Notes under the pieces: model-generated | What the model was told of the DNA's origin: nothing | Databases searched by the model: none | Seen by the model: only the letters and a program-made list of their open reading frames with translations | Made by a program: the position numbers and the translations under genes | Shown here: piece after piece, positions 37,145-47,540 of the stretch | Numbering within the stretch: the first letter of the stretch is position 1 | Layout of the letters: each line of letters begins with the position of its first letter | NCBI RefSeq assembly: GCF_025506335.1 | Contig: NZ_JANZYO010000004.1 | Span: 1 to 64,000 of the forward strand | DNA length: 64,000 bases | Direction of reading: 5' to 3' | Origin: Mumia quercus | GTDB taxonomy: Bacteria > Actinomycetota > Actinomycetes > Propionibacteriales > Nocardioidaceae

Positions 37145-38077
37145 TCATGGGCGTTTGAGCACCGGGATGAACCCCGCGACGACCAGCAGCACCCAGGTGG
37201 TGAGGATGTAGGGCCACGTGTAGTGCGGCTGATCGGTGAGGTCGGTCATGACGAGGGTCGTCACCGCCGTGATCGCCGCACCGACCCCGGCGTACACCCA
37301 CGAGGCAGTGCTGCTCCTGAGGAACACGACCGAGAGCGCGATCGCCGTCAGGACGCCGGAGTAGCCGGCCAGGCCCTCCGCGATGGTGGCGTCGGTCTCC
37401 CCGAGGGCGAGCGCACAGAGGCTGCCGATCACGCTGCCCATCACAGCGGCGACGCCGACCTTCCAGGAGGCGATGAAGAGTCCGAGCAGGATCAGCGCGC
37501 CGGCCCACACGCTGTTGACCAGGACGACCTCGGAGACGTTGGCCAGCAGCGAGCGCAGCACGGACTCTCCCGTGCCGTCCGTGGTGTGCACGGGCGACGA
37601 GCTGACGTGCAGGCTGGTCGTGGAGACGTAGATGATCCCTGCGACCGCGCAGAACGGCGCCGTGGTGGAGGGCAGTCCGAACCGCTCCAGCGGCCGTCTC
37701 CCGAAGAGCCAGACCAGGAACCAGGCCACCGGTGCGGTCAGGATGCCGCCGACGATGGTGAGGACGTACGACCAGCCCTGCCCGCCCATCGCGGTGTAGA
37801 CCGCCGCACCGATGAGCGCCCCGTTGAAGCCCTGCATCCCGATCCTGATGCTGTCGGCGCCTACCTTCAGCGCCGCGCCCGCAAGGGTCGAGGCGATGGT
37901 CCCGAGCAGCGCCAGGACCGCCATCTCCCAGTCGGCGACGACGAAGGCGGCCAGGATCAGCAGCCCCGTCCAGACGTTGCTCTGGAAGAAGATCTCGGAC
38001 ATGCCCCGCGGCAGCGCGGCGAGCCACGTCACCCAGGTGTTGGGGGGTGCCGCGGCCGTGGCTCCGGTTGCCGACAT
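37145..38077 (-). CDS. Urea transporter (UT/Yut family)
   Basis: A 310-residue membrane protein with about ten hydrophobic segments arranged as two similar halves, typical of urea-channel transporters. The N-terminal LPRGMSEIFFQSNVWTGLLILAAF block and the second-half LANVSEVVLVNSVWAGALILLGLF block are internal repeats of one another, matching the UT family pseudo-twofold. It starts 8 bp after ureD on the same strand, so it is the last gene of the urease operon and would supply the substrate. Confidence 0.92.
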   Translation of the reverse strand: MSATGATAAAPPNTWVTWLAALPRGMSEIFFQSNVWTGLLILAAFVVADWEMAVLALLGTIASTLAGAALKVGADSIRIGMQGFNGALIGAAVYTAMGGQGWSYVLTIVGGILTAPVAWFLVWLFGRRPLERFGLPSTTAPFCAVAGIIYVSTTSLHVSSSPVHTTDGTGESVLRSLLANVSEVVLVNSVWAGALILLGLFIASWKVGVAAVMGSVIGSLCALALGETDATIAEGLAGYSGVLTAIALSVVFLRSSTASWVYAGVGAAITAVTTLVMTDLTDQPHYTWPYILTTWVLLVVAGFIPVLKRP

Positions 38078-38085
38078 GACAGCTC

Positions 38086-39099
38086 CTAGCTCTTGCGAAC
38101 GACGGGGGCTTCGATGCCGGTGAGGAGACCTCGCAGCGCCCGCCACGCCTGCGTGACGGCGTCGAGGACCAGGTGGGTGTCGTCGCTCAGCAGGCGTACC
38201 CACACGCCGGCGTCCCTGGGGAGCGCACTCACTCCCAGGACGACGCCGGCCTCGACCGACGGGGCGAGCGCCTGGTGCAGGAGCTCGCTGATCTCGGCCA
38301 CCGACGCGCGGGGCGTCAGCACGTAGAGCATCGACAGGACGTCGTGGTCGTCGAGGACCGCCAGTCCCCCGGTGTCACGGTCGGTGGGGGTGAGGCGCAC
38401 ACGGTCGAGGGCGACGACCGAGCCGTCCGGACGGCGCACCTCCAGGTCCGCCGCGAGCGCGGTGTACTGGTGGCGCTCGTCGCTGGCGAGCCGCCCCGCG
38501 ACCAGCGTCTCGCCGATCACCAGCGTGGCCGACGGCGCGAGCGTGACGTGGGTGCGTTGGTAGAGACGGGCGTCGGCGAAGGCGATCACCGGGTCCGGGA
38601 GGTACTCGACGTACGCGTCGTCGTCGACGCGGACGTTGACCTGCGCCACCGCGTAGTCGTGCTCCATCCGCAGCACCTTCGTGTACGCCGACGTGGTCAC
38701 GTACGCGGACGTGCCCGGGCCGAACGTGAGGTCCGTACGGAGGCGGTCGCCCTGCAGGATGCCGGCCCCGGTGGACATGAGGTACGTGTACGGCATGTCC
38801 GGCCGCGCGGTGTCGTAGTAGAGCGGGTGCATGATCTGCAGCGGCGACTTCTGGTAGTGCTGGACCAGCTCGGTCCCGTTCCCGGTGCGCGCGAACTCGA
38901 GCTCGAGGACGCCGATCTTGCCCGGGCTCCCGGTCGGGAGCGTGTCGGGCACCCCGCTGAAGCGGGCCACCTCGTGCGGGACCCGGACCGGCTCGTAGTA
39001 CGCCGGCTCGAGCCGGTGCCCCCCGTACCCCGTCGACGGCGCGCCCACCTTCGGCACCGCGGACGCCGGCGGCGCGTCGTGGAGGGTGACGGTCTTCAT
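38086..39099 (-). CDS. ureD: Urease accessory protein UreD (UreH)
   Basis: A 337-residue scaffold protein that holds the apourease during nickel insertion. The block PYTYLMSTGAGILQGDRL followed by TSAYTKVLRMEHDYA and YLPDPVIAFADARLYQRT is the UreD core. UreD, UreF and UreG form the GTP-dependent complex that activates urease. It overlaps ureG by 4 bp and is followed by the urea transporter. Confidence 0.94.
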   Translation of the reverse strand: MKTVTLHDAPPASAVPKVGAPSTGYGGHRLEPAYYEPVRVPHEVARFSGVPDTLPTGSPGKIGVLELEFARTGNGTELVQHYQKSPLQIMHPLYYDTARPDMPYTYLMSTGAGILQGDRLRTDLTFGPGTSAYVTTSAYTKVLRMEHDYAVAQVNVRVDDDAYVEYLPDPVIAFADARLYQRTHVTLAPSATLVIGETLVAGRLASDERHQYTALAADLEVRRPDGSVVALDRVRLTPTDRDTGGLAVLDDHDVLSMLYVLTPRASVAEISELLHQALAPSVEAGVVLGVSALPRDAGVWVRLLSDDTHLVLDAVTQAWRALRGLLTGIEAPVVRKS

Positions 39100-39731
39100 C
39101 GCGACAGCACCGCCGGCCGGGCGTGCCAGGCGGCGAGGATCTGGTCCTGGAGCTCGTCGACACCGTCGCCCGTCAGCGAGTTCGTGAGGACGACCGGCTT
39201 GCCGTCACGGACGCGTCGCGCATCGGACTCCATGACGGAGAGATCGGTCCGGACGTACTGGGCGATGTCGATCTTGTTGATCACGAGGATGTCGGACTCC
39301 GTGATGCCGGGGCCACGCTTGCGCGGCATCTTCTCCCCTTCGGAGGTGTCGAGGACGAACACGAAGACGTCGGCGAGCGACGGCGAGAAGGTGAGCGTGA
39401 GGTTGTCGCCGCCCGACTCGTACACCAGGGTGTCGACCTCCGGGTACCGCTCGAGCATCTCCGCACCCGCCGCAAGGTTCATCGTGGGGTCGTCACGGAC
39501 CGCGGTGTGGGGACACGCGCCGGTCTCCACCCCGACCACCCGCTCCGGGTCGAGGATGCCGGCGAGCTCTCGTCGCACGTGCTGGGCGTCCTCCTGCGTG
39601 TAGATGTCGTTGGTGATGACCGCAGGCTGGCGCCCGGCGGCGAAGAGCCGGGGCACGAGGGCCTCCGTCAGTGCCGTCTTGCCCGAGCCCACCGGTCCTC
39701 CGATGCCGATCCGCAGCACGTCGTTGCTCAT
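39096..39731 (-). CDS. ureG: Urease accessory GTPase UreG
   Basis: A 211-residue SIMIBI-class GTPase that hydrolyses GTP to drive nickel delivery. The P-loop is GIGGPVGSGKTAL near residue 8; the CPH nickel-binding motif is in TGACPHTAVRDDP; SGGDNLTLTFSP and NKIDIAQYV (guanine specificity) are intact. In many bacteria UreE passes nickel to the UreG dimer at CPH; no ureE exists in this operon, so another donor is needed. It overlaps ureD by 4 bp. Confidence 0.97.
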   Translation of the reverse strand: MSNDVLRIGIGGPVGSGKTALTEALVPRLFAAGRQPAVITNDIYTQEDAQHVRRELAGILDPERVVGVETGACPHTAVRDDPTMNLAAGAEMLERYPEVDTLVYESGGDNLTLTFSPSLADVFVFVLDTSEGEKMPRKRGPGITESDILVINKIDIAQYVRTDLSVMESDARRVRDGKPVVLTNSLTGDGVDELQDQILAAWHARPAVLSR

Positions 39732-39774: not shown

Positions 39775-40470
39775 TCAGCTCGCGAAGAGTCGTGCCTCCG
39801 CGCGCTCGTGCTGGGCAGACATGACGTCCGCCATCGGGACGCACCCGCCCATGTCCTCGAGGTCACGGCCGACCGCCTCGGCAGCCTCCTCGGCGATGAC
39901 AGGTCCGACGGCGTGCAGCACGACCTGCACGTGCCGGTGGTCGGAGAGACGCAGCCGCAGTGCCGCCCCGAGGAAGCTCACCGCGAACGCGAACAGGTCC
40001 GAGGCGACCGCCTGCTCCGTTCCCACGCCGGCCGCCGCGTACGCGACCGCGGTCGCGACCGGCTGACAGCCCGGCGTCTCCTTCGCGGCGACGGCCCGCT
40101 TCCACTCCTCGAGCTCCGGCCCACCGATCGCCTCGAGCGCGATGTCGGTGAGCTGGTGGCCGCTGCGCACCGACGCTCTGCGCATCTCTGCGTTGAGCTT
40201 CGCGGCGAACAGCATCTCGTCGACCCGGCGCACGCGCTCCCAGTCACCGTCCTCGACCGCGTCGTGCGCCCGGGCGAGCGCCGTGGCGTCCCCCGGGCCG
40301 ACGGAGTGCCGCAGCAGTCCGGTGAGCAGCCCCTCGATCCCGTCCTGGTCGACCGCACCCGCCTGGCTGAACCCCTCCAACCCGTGCGACATCGTGTAGA
40401 AGCCGCTCGGGAACGCGGAGTCCGAGAGCTGGAGGCTCACGAGGAGGTCCCGCACGGTGGTCGACGTCAT
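39775..40470 (-). CDS. ureF: Urease accessory protein UreF
   Basis: A 231-residue all-helical protein that bridges UreD and UreG and acts in the activation complex. The N-terminal LLVSLQLSDSAFPSGFYTMSHGLEGF block is the UreF signature, and the C-terminal region with helix-rich DLFAFAVSFLGAALRL follows. It starts 5 bp after ureC and is 43 bp upstream of ureG. Confidence 0.95.
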   Translation of the reverse strand: MTSTTVRDLLVSLQLSDSAFPSGFYTMSHGLEGFSQAGAVDQDGIEGLLTGLLRHSVGPGDATALARAHDAVEDGDWERVRRVDEMLFAAKLNAEMRRASVRSGHQLTDIALEAIGGPELEEWKRAVAAKETPGCQPVATAVAYAAAGVGTEQAVASDLFAFAVSFLGAALRLRLSDHRHVQVVLHAVGPVIAEEAAEAVGRDLEDMGGCVPMADVMSAQHERAEARLFAS

Positions 40471-40475
40471 GGTGC

Positions 40476-42202
<1,727 letters not shown>

Positions 42203-42203
<1 letters not shown>

Positions 42204-42682
42204 CAGCTCTTCCTCTTCCTCGTGGACCCTGCGGACTTCTTCACCGGGCTCGACTTCTTCGCCGCGCTCGACTTCTTCGCCGGGCTCGACTTCTTCGCCT
42301 TGGCCGCTGGCTTGCCGTTCTTGAAGTCGCCCTCGGTCATCCTGGCCATCGCGTCGATCTGCGTCTGCCTCGCGTCGAGACCGCCGTCGACGAGGTTGTT
42401 GAACCCGTAGACGCGGCGCGCGCCTGCGTACGCCGTCAGGACGACGTCGCGGGTGTCACCGGGCTCGATGCGGACACCGGTCCCGGCGGGGATGTCCAGG
42501 TGCATCCCGAAGGCCCTCTCCCGCTCGAAGAGGAGGGCACGGTTGACCTCGAAGAAATGGAAGTGCGACCCGACCTGCACCGCACGGTCGCCCGTGTTGC
42601 TCACCGTGAGCGTGACGCTCTCGCGTCCGGCGTTGATCTCGATCTCGTCGTCGAGGTGGTGGTACTTGGGACTTCCCAGCAT
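42203..42682 (-). CDS. ureB: Urease beta subunit with histone-like Lys-rich C-terminal tail
   Basis: A 159-residue structural subunit. The core (residues 1 to about 120) is a normal Ure[14 protein letters not shown] and [20 protein letters not shown] are diagnostic. From about residue 121 it continues into a Lys/Ser/Ala/Pro-rich tail with repeated AKKSSP-type units ending KRKS, resembling histone H1 or mycobacterial HupB tails. Bacterial UreB normally ends near 100-125 residues, so the tail is an extension. At DNA level it is encoded partly by an 18-bp tandem repeat. Its role is unknown: anchoring, stabilisation or metal/nucleic-acid contact. Confidence 0.95.
42244..42297 (-). repeat. 18-bp tandem repeat (3 copies) in the 3' end of ureB
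   Basis: Three back-to-back copies of an 18-bp unit (CCGGGCTCGACTTCTTCG in plus-strand reading, one copy with a single change) encode the KKSSP-type tail repeats. The unit is a multiple of three, so copy-number change would lengthen or shorten the tail in frame. Confidence 0.85.
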
Positions 42683-42703: not shown

Positions 42704-42729
42704 CGGGCCGCGCGCGTGCACGCGGCCCG
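42704..42729 (-). promoter_or_regulatory. Intra-operon hairpin between the CbiX-like gene and ureB
   Basis: CGGGCCGCG and CGCGGCCCG form a perfect 9-bp stem around 8 nt in the 53-bp gap upstream of ureB. With no U-tract it may stabilise an mRNA end or attenuate expression between the chelatase-like gene and the structural subunits. Confidence 0.45.
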
Positions 42730-42735
42730 GATGGC

Positions 42736-43617
42736 TCAGTGGTGGGGCGAGGTGAGGACCTCGTCGTGGGAGGCGCCACGTTCGACGGGCGTCTCGTGTG
42801 GAACGTGGTGCGGGTGGACGTGCGGGTGCACATGGCCACCGTGTCCGGGAGCAGCACCGTCCTCGAACGCGTGCGAGTGCGCATACCCGTGACCGTGGTC
42901 GGCAAGCAGCCCGGCAGCGATCCCGTCCCGCCCGTGGCCCAGCTCGTGCTGCGCTTCGCTCACCCGTCGGCGCACGATGTCGAGCACTGCCGCCTCGGAG
43001 AGCAGCGGCCCGAAGAAGGTCGCGTGCTCGCCGGGCAGTCCTGGCGGCGGTCCCTTGCCGAATCCCGCCGGCACCACGACGACGTCGTCGGAGCCGAGCA
43101 GCAGTGCTCGTTCGACGGCGCGCCCGAGATCCGAGGGTTCAGCGACGCATGCGACCTCGACCTGAACCCCCGCACCGTGCGTGCGCACGAGATGAGCGAT
43201 GCGGTGGAGCTCCGCGTCGTCGAACGGGTTGGACGACGGCGCTGTCACCAGCACGCCGGCTCCCGGCCGCTGACGTGCCGTCTCCGTCGCGGCGCGGCGC
43301 AGCCACGCGACCAGGTGGTCCACAGTCCCGAAGCTCGGTGTCAGGGCAAGGCGCCCACCGGCGTCGGAGGCGAGCCAGCTCAGCGTCTTCGCGACGTCGG
43401 CGACCATGACGGGATCGCGACCCCAGGTCATGGTGACGACGACGACGGTCTCGCCCGCGGCGAGGGACGGGGCGACGGTGTTGTGCAGCGCTCGTCCTGC
43501 AGGGGTGACGACGGCGTCGGGGAGCAGGTCGAGGAGGGGAAGCAGGTCACTCCCGTACGCGCTCTCGTGGCCACCGACGAGCACCGTCGTGACCGCGCTG
43601 TGCTCCCCCGTCGGCAT
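42736..43617 (-). CDS. CbiX/SirB-like chelatase-fold protein with His-rich C-terminus, in place of ureE
   Basis: A 293-residue protein. Residues 1 to about 235 resemble the two-domain CbiX/SirB type II chelatase fold: the first half opens VLVGGHES with His17 at the usual metal-ligand position, and the second half contains [26 protein letters not shown] with a second candidate His. Residues 238-293 are a histidine-rich tail with 15 His in 56 residues, like the metal-binding tail of UreE. The gene starts 3 bp after ureA and precedes ureB, so it belongs to the operon. No other gene here is for cobalamin. I infer a nickel storage or delivery role; fold assignment is moderate confidence. Confidence 0.75.
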
Positions 43618-43620
43618 CTG

Positions 43621-43926
43621 TCAGGCCGCCACAGGGTCGTGACAGGAGACGAGCTTGCTGCCGTCGATGAAGGTGGCCTCCACCTGGAGCAGGGCCAGGC
43701 GTTCACGGACCCCCGCCATGCAGTCGGCCTCGGAGACCACGTGCTTGCCGAGCTCCATGCACTCGGCCACGGACTTGCCGTCGCGGGCCGCCTCCAGGAT
43801 CGCCTCGGAGATCAGCGCCTGGGCCTCGCTGAGATTGAGCTTGGTGCCGCGATCGCGACGCCGCCGGGCGAGGTCTGCGACCTGGTAGACGTAGAGCTTG
43901 TCGATCTCCCGCGGAGTGAGGTTCAT
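43621..43926 (-). CDS. ureA: Urease gamma subunit
   Basis: A 101-residue structural subunit. MNLTPREIDKLYVYQVADLARRRRDRG and LNLSEAQALISEAILEAARDGKSV are classic UreA. The start is fixed by GAAAGGTGG upstream. UreA, UreB and UreC assemble as the (abc)3 apoenzyme. It is the first gene of the operon; its promoter lies in the 170-bp divergent gap with the FUSC gene. Confidence 0.97.
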   Translation of the reverse strand: MNLTPREIDKLYVYQVADLARRRRDRGTKLNLSEAQALISEAILEAARDGKSVAECMELGKHVVSEADCMAGVRERLALLQVEATFIDGSKLVSCHDPVAA

Positions 43927-44096: not shown

Positions 44097-47000
44097 GTGG
44101 ACATCGTCTGGATCGCCCTGGGAGCCGTCATCCTGGGCGCGACTCTGCTCGACGTGTTCCTTACGGCGCTGAACTACGACGAGGCGGGAATCTTCAGCGG
44201 TGCTGCGACGCGCTGGCAGTGGCGGATCCTGCGCCGGATCACCCGGCGCCTGTCTCGGCGGTGGCGACCGGTCGGGCTCCGGCAGGTCACCGGGATCCAG
44301 ATCATCACCGTCATCGTCCTCTGGGTGTTCGGGATCATCACCGGGTTCGGGCTCATCTACTACGGCCTGATGTCGCGGTCCAGCTTCTCGGTGTCGGGCG
44401 AAGGCGCCGGGCTCACCCTCTTCGACGCGTTCTACTTCAGCGCCGCCCAGCTGTCGACCGTGGGCGGCTCGTCCCTGACGGCGGAGACCGACCTCCTGCG
44501 GTTCCTCAGCATCGCGGAGACGCTCTCCGGCGTCGTCCTGATCTCCCTGATCCTCACGTTCCTGCTGGCCATCTACTCGGTCTTCAGCGACCTGAACGGG
44601 CTGTGCCGGTACTTCTTCACCGCGGAGCGAGGAGCCGGCTCCACCGTCGCCACCCTCACCCCCTTCTTCAGGAACGGTCAGCCGAACGGGCTGGACACCC
44701 ACCTCGACGGCATCTCCGGCTCGTTCGCCTCGTACACCGACGGAGTGCGTCTGCACCATGCCGCCTACTACTTCCAGAGCGGACGCGACCAGTTCGCGCT
44801 GCCGTACGCGATCCGGATGCTGGCGGGAACGCTCGGCGCGCTGCGGTGGGGTCTCCCGACTGGGCACCCGGCCGCCGCCGACCCCAGCCTGATCTCGCTC
44901 ACCTTCCAGTTCCTCCAGTTCGGCGAGTACCTGCAGCGCAGCGTGGGATGGCGGAGCCGCGACGTGCCCGAGGTCGTGAGTGCCGAGACCTTCGCGAAGC
45001 TCGCCCGCGATCCCCGAGGCAAGCGCGAGAACGAGTGGGTCGCCCAGTTCCTCGACCTGGACGCCGCGATGGCGCGACTGGCCGAGGTCGAGCCGCTGGC
45101 CGACATGGACGACACGTATCGGCGGTACAGCGAATGGCTGCCGTTCGCCTACCGGGCGCAGCAGATCACCCTCGGTGTGAGCGCCGACCTCGACTACCAG
45201 CCCGCCATCGTCTCGGACGAGCCCGTCTCCATGCTCCACGACCACGACACCATCGCTCTGGAGAACGTCGCGGAGATCACGCCGCTCGTCGGGAGGAGCA
45301 CCCCTAAGACGGTCGCCGGTTCCCACGGCTCGCACCTCGGCCGCTGGTGGGCGAGGCGCGACCTCCGGCACTCGCAGGTCGACCCCGGATACTCACGGTT
45401 CCGCGCGGCGGCGCGGTCGGTCCTCGCGGCGGCCACCGCCGCGCTCCTCCTCTACGGCATCTTCGAGGCGACCGGTCGCAGCTCGCTGTCGCCGGCCATC
45501 TTCGGCGGCTTCGTCGGCATGCTGAGCGCCGGGATATCGGCGGACAGGACACCGCGTGCCGCGCGTCTCACGAGCGCGCTGATCATCGTGCCGGTCGCCG
45601 TGGTCGTGATGCTCGGCGCACTCGTGTCGGGCTCCGTCGTGCTGACCGGGGTCTTCGTCGTCGTGGTGGCGATGGTCGGCGTCTGGGCCGGGCGGTTCGG
45701 TCCGCGCTGGGCGGCGCTCGGCCAGGTGACCTTCATGGCGTACTACTTCGCGCTGATCCTGCGCCTGCAGCTCACCGACGTCGCGCTCTACCTCACCGCC
45801 GCGGCGGTCGGGGTCGCGTCGGCGTACCTGTTCACCCACGTGCTCCTGCGGCAACAGCCGCTGCGTGCACTGCGCAGCGGGTTGAGCGGGTTCGCGCAGC
45901 GCCTGGTGTCGTCGATGGACACCCTCTTCGACGCGGTGTCAGCGGCTCGCTGGGATCCCGACATCCGCAGGAACGTCTCCGCCGACATCAGGCAGCTCCG
46001 CAGCGATGCGGCGTTCGTCGCCGGCCAGGTCAGCGGCGACGAGACCCTGACCGGTGTCAGCGCCCACCGTGCGACGGCGCTGAGGCTCCGCCTGTTCGAC
46101 ACCGAGCTGGCGGCCATGAACCTGGTGGCGGCGGCGCACAGCGTCACAGGCACCATGATCTCGCTCGAGCTTCGCGCCCGGCTCGCCGGCCGGGTGGAGC
46201 TGCTGCAGGCGCACCTCGCACAGATGGCCGTGATCCCGGGTGACGCTGCCTCGCAGGTGGTTCCCTCGGACGCCCAGCTCGCCCCGTGGAGAGATGACGA
46301 GCCGGCGGCTGACTGGCCGCGCGCCGCCCGCCTCGTGTTCCAGGCGGCCAACGAGCTTCACGGCGCCGCGTCCGAGTTCCGGGCCACCGCCGTCGCCGCC
46401 CTCGATCCGAGCGCGCCGGTCGCCGTCCCGCTGGACGACGAGGAGGACACGAGTGGTGACGTCGACCGCTCCGTCGCGACCCCACCATCCGAAGACCCCC
46501 CGCGTGGCCGATGGCCGCTGTCCCCGCCCACCCGTCGAGCGATCCAGACGGCGGTCGCGACCGGCGCCGCACTGACGATCGGCGAGGTGGTCTCGGCCTC
46601 CCACCAGTACTGGGCGGCGCTCGCCGCCTACCAGGTGCTGGGCGGCACCAACGGAGAGACGTTCCTCAAGGGCGCGCAGCGGGTCGCGGGCACCGTCGCC
46701 GGTGCCGCGGTCGGGTTCGGGTTGGCGCTCTCGACGGGAGCGGACCCGAGGGTGGTCCTCCCCCTCCTCGCCGTCGCGGTCTTCGGCTCGACCTACTACC
46801 GCCCGGTCGCACCGGCGGTGTCGACGTTCTGGACGACGATGATCTTCGCCGTCCTCTACGAGTTCCTCGGCCGCCTGACCACCCTCGCACTGGAGATGCG
46901 GATCCTGGAGACGCTCTTCGGTGCGGCGATCGCCCTGGTCGTCGCCGCGCTGGTCCTGCCGACGCGCACCCGCAACGTGCTAAGCAAGGACGCGACCACC

Positions 47001-47540
47001 GTCGTGAAGGACGTCGACGCGATCACCTCCGCCAGCCTGGGCCGACTGGCCGGGAACCACTCGATCTCGAAGGCGGCGATCCGTCAGCGGCTCCTCGCCG
47101 CCGAGCAGCACGTCCGCGCACTCGAGTCGGCGTTCGCGCCGCTCCGACTGGCACCCGGTGCGGTCCAGGTCGGTGGCGTCGAGGCCCGGCTCACCGCGGT
47201 GTGGGCGTTGATGTTCCACACCCGCCAGCTCGTCGCTGCCGTCGAGAGCGCCATCGACGCCGGCGTCGACGGCTCCTCGGAAGACTGGGACGGGCTGAGC
47301 CGTACGTTGAGCAAGAACGCCACCGCCCTGACCACGGCGTTGGACGGCAAGCTCCCCGGCCCCGTCGACCCGGACGTGGGTGGGGACGACACGGACCCGT
47401 CGAGCGCGACCGCCGCCCGTGAGCAGAGTGCCGTCCTGCGCGAGCTCGGGCTGGTCAACGACACGCTGCTGGTCATGATCGAGGACGTGTCGCCCGGCGC
47501 GGTGAACGATCCGAACACGCGTGAGCCGGTGTCGGCGTGA
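44097..47540 (+). CDS. Large FUSC-family membrane protein with N-terminal channel-like pore module
   Basis: A 1147-residue protein starting at GTG. The first about 165 residues look like a small cation-channel module: two membrane helices (about 3-25 and 66-92), then DAFYFSAAQLSTVGGSS (110-126), which resembles a K+ channel pore helix and selectivity filter (TVGYG in true K+ channels), then a third helix (about 135-160). After a cytoplasmic region of about 300 residues come two FUSC-type membrane blocks (about 445-590 and 820-960), each of five to six helices, separated by helical soluble stretches. FUSC proteins are thought to export aromatic acids. The fusion is unusual. Confidence 0.85.
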   Translation: MDIVWIALGAVILGATLLDVFLTALNYDEAGIFSGAATRWQWRILRRITRRLSRRWRPVGLRQVTGIQIITVIVLWVFGIITGFGLIYYGLMSRSSFSVSGEGAGLTLFDAFYFSAAQLSTVGGSSLTAETDLLRFLSIAETLSGVVLISLILTFLLAIYSVFSDLNGLCRYFFTAERGAGSTVATLTPFFRNGQPNGLDTHLDGISGSFASYTDGVRLHHAAYYFQSGRDQFALPYAIRMLAGTLGALRWGLPTGHPAAADPSLISLTFQFLQFGEYLQRSVGWRSRDVPEVVSAETFAKLARDPRGKRENEWVAQFLDLDAAMARLAEVEPLADMDDTYRRYSEWLPFAYRAQQITLGVSADLDYQPAIVSDEPVSMLHDHDTIALENVAEITPLVGRSTPKTVAGSHGSHLGRWWARRDLRHSQVDPGYSRFRAAARSVLAAATAALLLYGIFEATGRSSLSPAIFGGFVGMLSAGISADRTPRAARLTSALIIVPVAVVVMLGALVSGSVVLTGVFVVVVAMVGVWAGRFGPRWAALGQVTFMAYYFALILRLQLTDVALYLTAAAVGVASAYLFTHVLLRQQPLRALRSGLSGFAQRLVSSMDTLFDAVSAARWDPDIRRNVSADIRQLRSDAAFVAGQVSGDETLTGVSAHRATALRLRLFDTELAAMNLVAAAHSVTGTMISLELRARLAGRVELLQAHLAQMAVIPGDAASQVVPSDAQLAPWRDDEPAADWPRAARLVFQAANELHGAASEFRATAVAALDPSAPVAVPLDDEEDTSGDVDRSVATPPSEDPPRGRWPLSPPTRRAIQTAVATGAALTIGEVVSASHQYWAALAAYQVLGGTNGETFLKGAQRVAGTVAGAAVGFGLALSTGADPRVVLPLLAVAVFGSTYYRPVAPAVSTFWTTMIFAVLYEFLGRLTTLALEMRILETLFGAAIALVVAALVLPTRTRNVLSKDATTVVKDVDAITSASLGRLAGNHSISKAAIRQRLLAAEQHVRALESAFAPLRLAPGAVQVGGVEARLTAVWALMFHTRQLVAAVESAIDAGVDGSSEDWDGLSRTLSKNATALTTALDGKLPGPVDPDVGGDDTDPSSATAAREQSAVLRELGLVNDTLLVMIEDVSPGAVNDPNTREPVSA

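Follow-up and report, generated by a model that had tools for sequence, protein, structure and literature searches.

A diverged, histidine-tailed CbiX/SirB-type protein as a putative nickel-binding module of urease maturation in one actinobacterial lineage

How is nickel brought to a urease whose operon encodes neither UreE nor a UreG with a histidine stretch? The question is raised by a 64,000-nt stretch of the genome of Mumia quercus (contig NZ_JANZYO010000004.1, positions 1 to 64,000; hereafter the window), in which a urease operon carries an additional gene between ureA and ureB, whose 293-residue product we call X. A Pfam/NCBIfam scan of the window bore out the neighbours named in the original prediction, giving the order ureA, X, ureB, ureC, ureF, ureG, ureD and urea transporter, all on the minus strand. 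The gamma subunit gene ureA lies at 43621-43926 (PF00547, 132 bits), and the ORF of X, a CbiX/SirB-like, His-tailed putative urease accessory protein, was confirmed exactly at 42736-43617 on the minus strand. The beta subunit gene ureB follows at 42203-42682 (PF00699, 137.7 bits; the ORF opens at 42721 and the ATG at 42682 was chosen by comparison with locus L009), then the alpha subunit gene ureC at 40476-42203 (TIGR01792, over cut-off), ureF at 39775-40470 (PF01730, 120.5 bits), ureG at 39096-39731 (TIGR00101, over cut-off), ureD at 38086-39099 (PF01774, 168.8 bits) and a transporter of the UT/Yut family, with an uncertain start, at 37145-38203 (PF03253, 218.6 bits). UreG, whose ORF opens at 39866 and whose conserved start is MSNDVLRIGIGGPVG, has no His-rich extension at either end.

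X starts 3 nt past the ureA stop codon. The same operon position was found in 15 loci, and in all 14 loci that were measured the distance between ureA and X lies between -4 and +17 nt, which suggests translational coupling. Every X operon mapped with both of its ends also has a urea transporter gene, which follows ureD in the window's own family (Nocardioidaceae) and precedes ureA in the other X operons. PADLOC gave no match. Adjoining the operon, a divergently oriented gene at 44097-47540 (plus strand) encodes a membrane protein that reads as ion-channel plus FUSC-like; it recurs, at 41-69% identity, next to 8 of 9 other own-family X operons, the exception being L010, and was found in 0 of 5 scanned X operons outside the family.

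X alone gives no Pfam CbiX match, and NCBIfam returns just two weak SDR matches. Across the family, Pfam CbiX is reached at E<1 in 12 of 14 aligned members (best 3.5e-6), with its 22-bit cut-off passed by 3 of the 10 members scanned, and hhalign of the X family against ten CbiX/SirB proteins yields 98.9% and an E value of 1.2e-17 over 219 columns. This homology to the class II chelatase superfamily (CbiX/SirB) extends over both lobes, in agreement with the chelatase-like core proposed originally, and on the strength of this alignment we class X as a diverged CbiX/SirB-type protein with two lobes. An SDR identity was discarded, the matches being weak (PDB 2z1n, E 0.0045) and confined to at most 2 of 14 members. 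A PDB profile search with X returned nothing useful, with a sirohydrochlorin cobaltochelatase entry, 6m25, which we take to be CfbA, at E 7.9. No Pfam UreE domain was matched by X or by the aligned members; weak NCBIfam UreE matches of single members (5.3e-4 and 0.72) probably arise from the His tail. Curated models thus comprise no NCBIfam family and a marginal Pfam match. The dN/dS ratio of the core is 0.19-0.38 against five own-family relatives and 0.38-0.60 against three more distant ones, while that of the tail is 0.17-0.44 in the five unsaturated pairs, from which we conclude that X is a real, selected gene.

Homology leaves the question of whether the chelatase site is intact. The catalytic pair of SirB is His10/His76. 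His17 of X lies within VLVGGHES, as predicted, and is kept in 41 of the 43 homologues with a letter there; SirB His76 falls at X residues 65-72 by the hhalign alignment, and no His is found at these residues in 46 of 46 homologues. With homology over both lobes, the first His kept and the second gone, X belongs to the superfamily yet is without its defining catalytic pair. The Glu position of the site is variable (residues 37-40), and the Fe-S motif MXCXXC of CbiX-L is found in 0 of 49 X. Conserved residues specific to X are Glu18 (43/43), Gly66-Arg67 (46/46), His101 (46/46) and Asp134 (47/47). It is highly improbable that X is a working tetrapyrrole chelatase, which inserts nickel or cobalt into sirohydrochlorin while its gene merely resides in a urease operon: the clear homology to both CbiX halves and the retention of His17 would fit such an activity, but the loss of the second metal His and the variable Glu position do not, the genome (4.1 Mb, 13 contigs) holds two further CbiX-like genes besides its single X, one of them beside a gene read as cysH, and the Pfam/NCBIfam scan found no tetrapyrrole gene in the mapped operon.

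The second predicted feature, the His-rich tail, was likewise seen, with 15 His in the last 57 residues (residues 237-293; 42739-42909, minus strand). Among 49 X homologues the His-richest 40-residue window of the C-terminal part contains 6-19 His (median 12), and an in-frame terminal His cluster is present in 48. The exception is L185 (genome G864), where the core is in frame and UreG is bare, but the tail loses its reading frame past HHGHAHTH; the shifted frame has no stop through ureB into the frame of ureC and may reflect a real shift or a sequencing error. This locus, together with short tails such as HDHHH in L194 and core residues that are nearly invariant and under purifying selection, would suit a structural assembly factor of this urease lineage whose function resides in the conserved core (G16-H17-E18, G66-R67-D68, H101, D134), the tail being left over from a CbiX-L ancestor. 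We nevertheless consider such a factor rather improbable, given how consistently the in-frame His cluster is kept, and operons without intact X, described below, weigh against it as well.

The original prediction regarded X as filling the ureE slot of the operon. In the ureE operons read, ureE was never situated between ureA and ureB; in Providencia (nearest by UreC), Hydrogenophilus, Priestia and Sulfitobacter its place is between ureC and ureF, and Paracoccus, Acinetobacter and Haloarcula have it elsewhere. The slot was therefore abandoned as evidence, X being located between ureA and ureB and UreE being rare in the class anyway. A ureE gene elsewhere in the genome would have spoken against the prediction, and UreE_N gave no match over cut-off in the 4.1-Mb window genome; nor was ureE found in any of 14 X-bearing genomes that were searched in full. 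The expected mutual exclusion of ureE and X is weak evidence, since UreE_N over cut-off occurs in just 7 of 393 genomes of the class, all seven urease-bearing, and UreC in 167. UreE was accordingly not found in 160 of the 167 urease-bearing genomes, in a search that scored at most 15 candidates per genome and may miss some divergent UreE. HypB was rejected as donor in most X genomes, being over cut-off in only 2 of 14. It should be noted that several nickel carriers may be encoded in one operon, as in a Deinococcus radiodurans plasmid (L137), where annotated HypA, HypB and UreE genes lie between ureC and ureF.

In the part available of Haas et al. (PMC2770081), UreG is proposed to carry a His stretch whenever UreE is lacking, and HypB is suggested for the two exceptions to this rule. 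We therefore read the ends of UreG and scored a His stretch if three or more His occurred either in the N-terminal extension, taken from the nearest ATG, or among the final 30 residues. Such a stretch is seen in none of 48 X operons, none of 18 ureE operons and 31 of 33 ureE-less operons outside the clade, the latter hand-picked from UreC lists before the UreG ends were read and not a random draw (L125-L130 among them had been fetched earlier). With the farthest start within 60 codons, the counts are 1/48, 2/18 and 32/33. Rows without UreG in the fetched stretch (L062, L083, L087, L129) were dropped, as were L163, in which X is present and the contig ends before UreG, and L212, where the contig starts before ureB and X is undecidable; L153, L157 and L166 are the same loci as L044, L131 and L045 and were counted once. 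The informative contrast is consequently X against His-rich UreG, not X against ureE. Of the predicted replacement of UreE, the absence of ureE, the His tail and the linkage to urease stand, but the contrast itself lies with His-rich UreG, which is found in none of the 48 X operons.

Single UreG loci deserve separate mention. L066, ureE-less and outside the clade, has no clear UreG His stretch either. In L120 an in-frame tandem repeat encoding NHDD units lies just upstream of the conserved ureG start; it counts as a His stretch if 70 codons back are taken, and would provide a His-rich start if translated from upstream. A C-terminal stretch, with 4-12 His in the last 30 residues, characterizes one 14-row urease branch (L057-L059, L067, L072-L074, L076, L078, L080, L081, L126, L127, L130).

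X marks one urease lineage. Sampled over the class (Actinomycetes), strong X (over 200 bits) is found in 4 of 393 genomes; the X-profile search gave weaker matches in 42 genomes besides these four, and 18 of the 26 weaker loci read contained an ORF with CbiX-like motifs by our own filter. In the window's own family (341 genomes) UreC identity to the window is bimodal, with eight loci at 79-100% and the other matches listed at 57% or below. X is present in 8 of 8 loci with a UreC identity of at least 79%, and in 0 of 10 other own-family urease loci fetched. Streptomyces (by inference the genus of G123) contributes 26 in-clade UreC (71-76%) in 25 of 219 genomes and f18, the family of G323, 24 (67-72%) in 24 of 220 genomes; X was found in 20 of the Streptomyces loci (five lack it and one is cut by the contig end) and in 17 of those of f18. 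The UreC search thus found 58 in-clade loci, with X in 45 of the 57 decidable ones, in three groups each chosen for holding a known X. In a tree of UreC and UreG, 15 X rows form one group with full support, nested in a 17-row group together with a Providencia plasmid urease (ureABC-ureE-FGD-yut) and genome G643, which has no X, no ureE and a UreG with HHHDHSHDRH. Long branches are flagged for both in both trees, and their exact order is therefore unsure. A plasmid search additionally found X in Streptomyces sp. NBC_01237. On a megaplasmid of Embleya sp. NBC_00896 (L132, 8001-9333) a decayed urease operon still has X and ureB adjacent, with weak ureA fragments only and no ureC, F, G or D further along the fetched stretch; it was excluded from every count.

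Within the clade, 12 operons lack an intact X, and 8 of these have a His-rich UreG (6 of 12 by nearest ATG). The stretch lies at the UreG N-terminus in five Streptomyces operons (L202-L206) and three of f18 (L208-L210), with MHDPTQVRGSHHHHDHDEL and MDHHHHHHDAHP as examples, and depends in L205 and L206 on an upstream start common to sister operons. The presence of His on UreG in these eight operons argues against a tail that is only a relic on an assembly factor, as does L207, the only core-deleted locus, which keeps the tail. Compared with L171, which belongs to the same genus, this locus has lost the core of X through an in-frame deletion, and what is left, eight initial codons plus the His tail, forms a 45-codon ORF that overlaps the ureA stop by one base. 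This ORF may be decay, and it is merely suggestive, since the frame would be retained by chance one time in three and the genome holds a second, His-rich UreG (L214). Three operons (L200, L201 and L211, in genomes G954, G1046 and G1068) have no X and a bare UreG, the only UreG of each genome; with UreE and HypB considered over the fetched stretch, they are genuine exceptions with none of the three modules, so that a module is either not strictly needed or supplied from elsewhere. As a separate observation, the UreB of G954 (L200, 4456-5493), a protein of 345 residues in all, carries a very long Lys/Ala/Pro-rich C-terminal extension.

Taken over 59 rows, with L207 left out, a UreG His stretch is present in 0 of 48 operons with X versus 8 of 11 without (Fisher p 7e-8, not corrected for descent). 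X and His-rich UreG are thus complementary in distribution; however, allowing for descent leaves 2 independent pairs (sign test p 0.5), and the association consequently rests on few independent events. The main rival explanation is that X is a mere sink for nickel (or zinc or cobalt), whose tail stores or detoxifies metal and never hands it to UreG. The tail alone is plainly metal-binding in character, L207 keeps a tail-only ORF without the core, and three clade members have neither X nor a His-rich UreG. A sink is nonetheless unlikely in our view, as X abuts ureA in all 14 loci measured and is complementary to His stretches that sit on UreG, a dedicated delivery GTPase.

We therefore favour, with moderate confidence, a reading of these sequences in which X would supply the nickel-binding module of urease maturation in one lineage and would be derived from a cobaltochelatase of the CbiX-L type. 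X probably takes over the module otherwise provided by UreE or UreG because of the contrast in UreG and because the closest lineages outside the clade rely on either UreE or a His-rich UreG. With UreE absent and UreG devoid of a His stretch, no His-rich nickel ligand other than the tail of X was found encoded in X operons. The shifted tail of L185 beside a bare UreG tells slightly against this reading, as do L066 and the three clade operons with none of the modules. The ancestor would have been a class II cobaltochelatase similar to CbiX-L and bearing a His tail, whose chelatase site was dismantled by loss of the second His, the Glu and the Cys motif, and whose two-lobed fold, His17 and His-rich tail were kept. 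In the present-day protein, the tail would gather cytosolic Ni(II), the chelatase-like core would dock and pass the metal to UreG, and UreG, UreD and UreF would then load urease with nickel. Gene order, homology, the lost site residues, the tail and the complementary distribution with His-rich UreG are observed; we infer that the metal is nickel, that UreG is the partner, that X donates instead of storing and that evolution ran in this direction. A tail of this kind could coordinate Zn, Co or Cu instead. More tentatively, X might found a third class of proteins for nickel delivery to urease, namely a former cobaltochelatase whose substrate would have changed from a tetrapyrrole to the UreG/urease machinery and which would be evolutionarily interchangeable with UreE and His-rich UreG. 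The nearly invariant His17, Glu18, His101 and Asp134 would then form a remodelled nickel site in the former active-site cleft, which the tail would feed before the metal is handed over, a possibility that we put forward with some doubt.

If the proposed role is true, it would explain how an actinobacterial urease lineage without UreE or His-rich UreG is loaded with nickel, provide a clear example of a cofactor-making enzyme that became a metal donor, and identify a protein family without a curated model. The natural variants, in which X is absent and UreG His-rich, the ORF is tail-only, the tail is shifted or neither module is present, offer a way to test what the His stretch does.

X was not described in the literature on urease combined with CbiX, sirohydrochlorin or chelatase, or with His-rich UreE or UreG, a scope outside which most subscription papers lay, nor in the portions available of PMC2770081, PMC4531530, PMC7055735, PMC7689651 and PMC11301274. 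What we rate as new is a putative urease nickel-delivery module on a new scaffold, compensation for UreE by a His-rich UreG being already published. UreE resembles X in being encoded in urease operons and in often ending in a His-rich tail (as in L049-L056), but X has no UreE domain by Pfam and its gene lies between ureA and ureB. Hpn-type nickel storage proteins are small and, unlike X, have no chelatase-like core. Their likeness to X is the His-rich nickel module. The His-extended UreG, as far as the accessible portion of PMC2770081 describes it, likewise provides a His-rich stretch when UreE is lacking, but the stretch is located on the GTPase, whereas in X it sits on a separate chelatase-like protein. 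CfbA, which inserts nickel according to the available part of PMC11301274, had been invoked as a precedent for nickel handling by this fold. CfbA and SirB share the class II chelatase superfamily with X, but X lacks their two-His metal site and is two-lobed and His-tailed, and the precedent is weak because X has lost both the Glu and the second metal-binding His. For CbiX-L, the accessible portion of PMC7689651 places the two catalytic His in the N-terminal lobe and describes an extension at the C-terminus that contains a 4Fe-4S MXCXXC motif and a long stretch rich in His, which is dispensable for catalysis and may store and deliver metal. Such a His-rich tail extension is seen in 8 of the 10 CbiX/SirB proteins aligned here and not in the two from the window's genome. 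X differs from CbiX-L by the missing second His, the missing MXCXXC and its tie to urease operons; two CbiX-like halves, an N-terminal active-site His and a His-rich C-terminal tail are common to both, and by this analogy the CbiX-L tail, with its proposed part in metal storage and delivery, appears a better precedent for X than CfbA.
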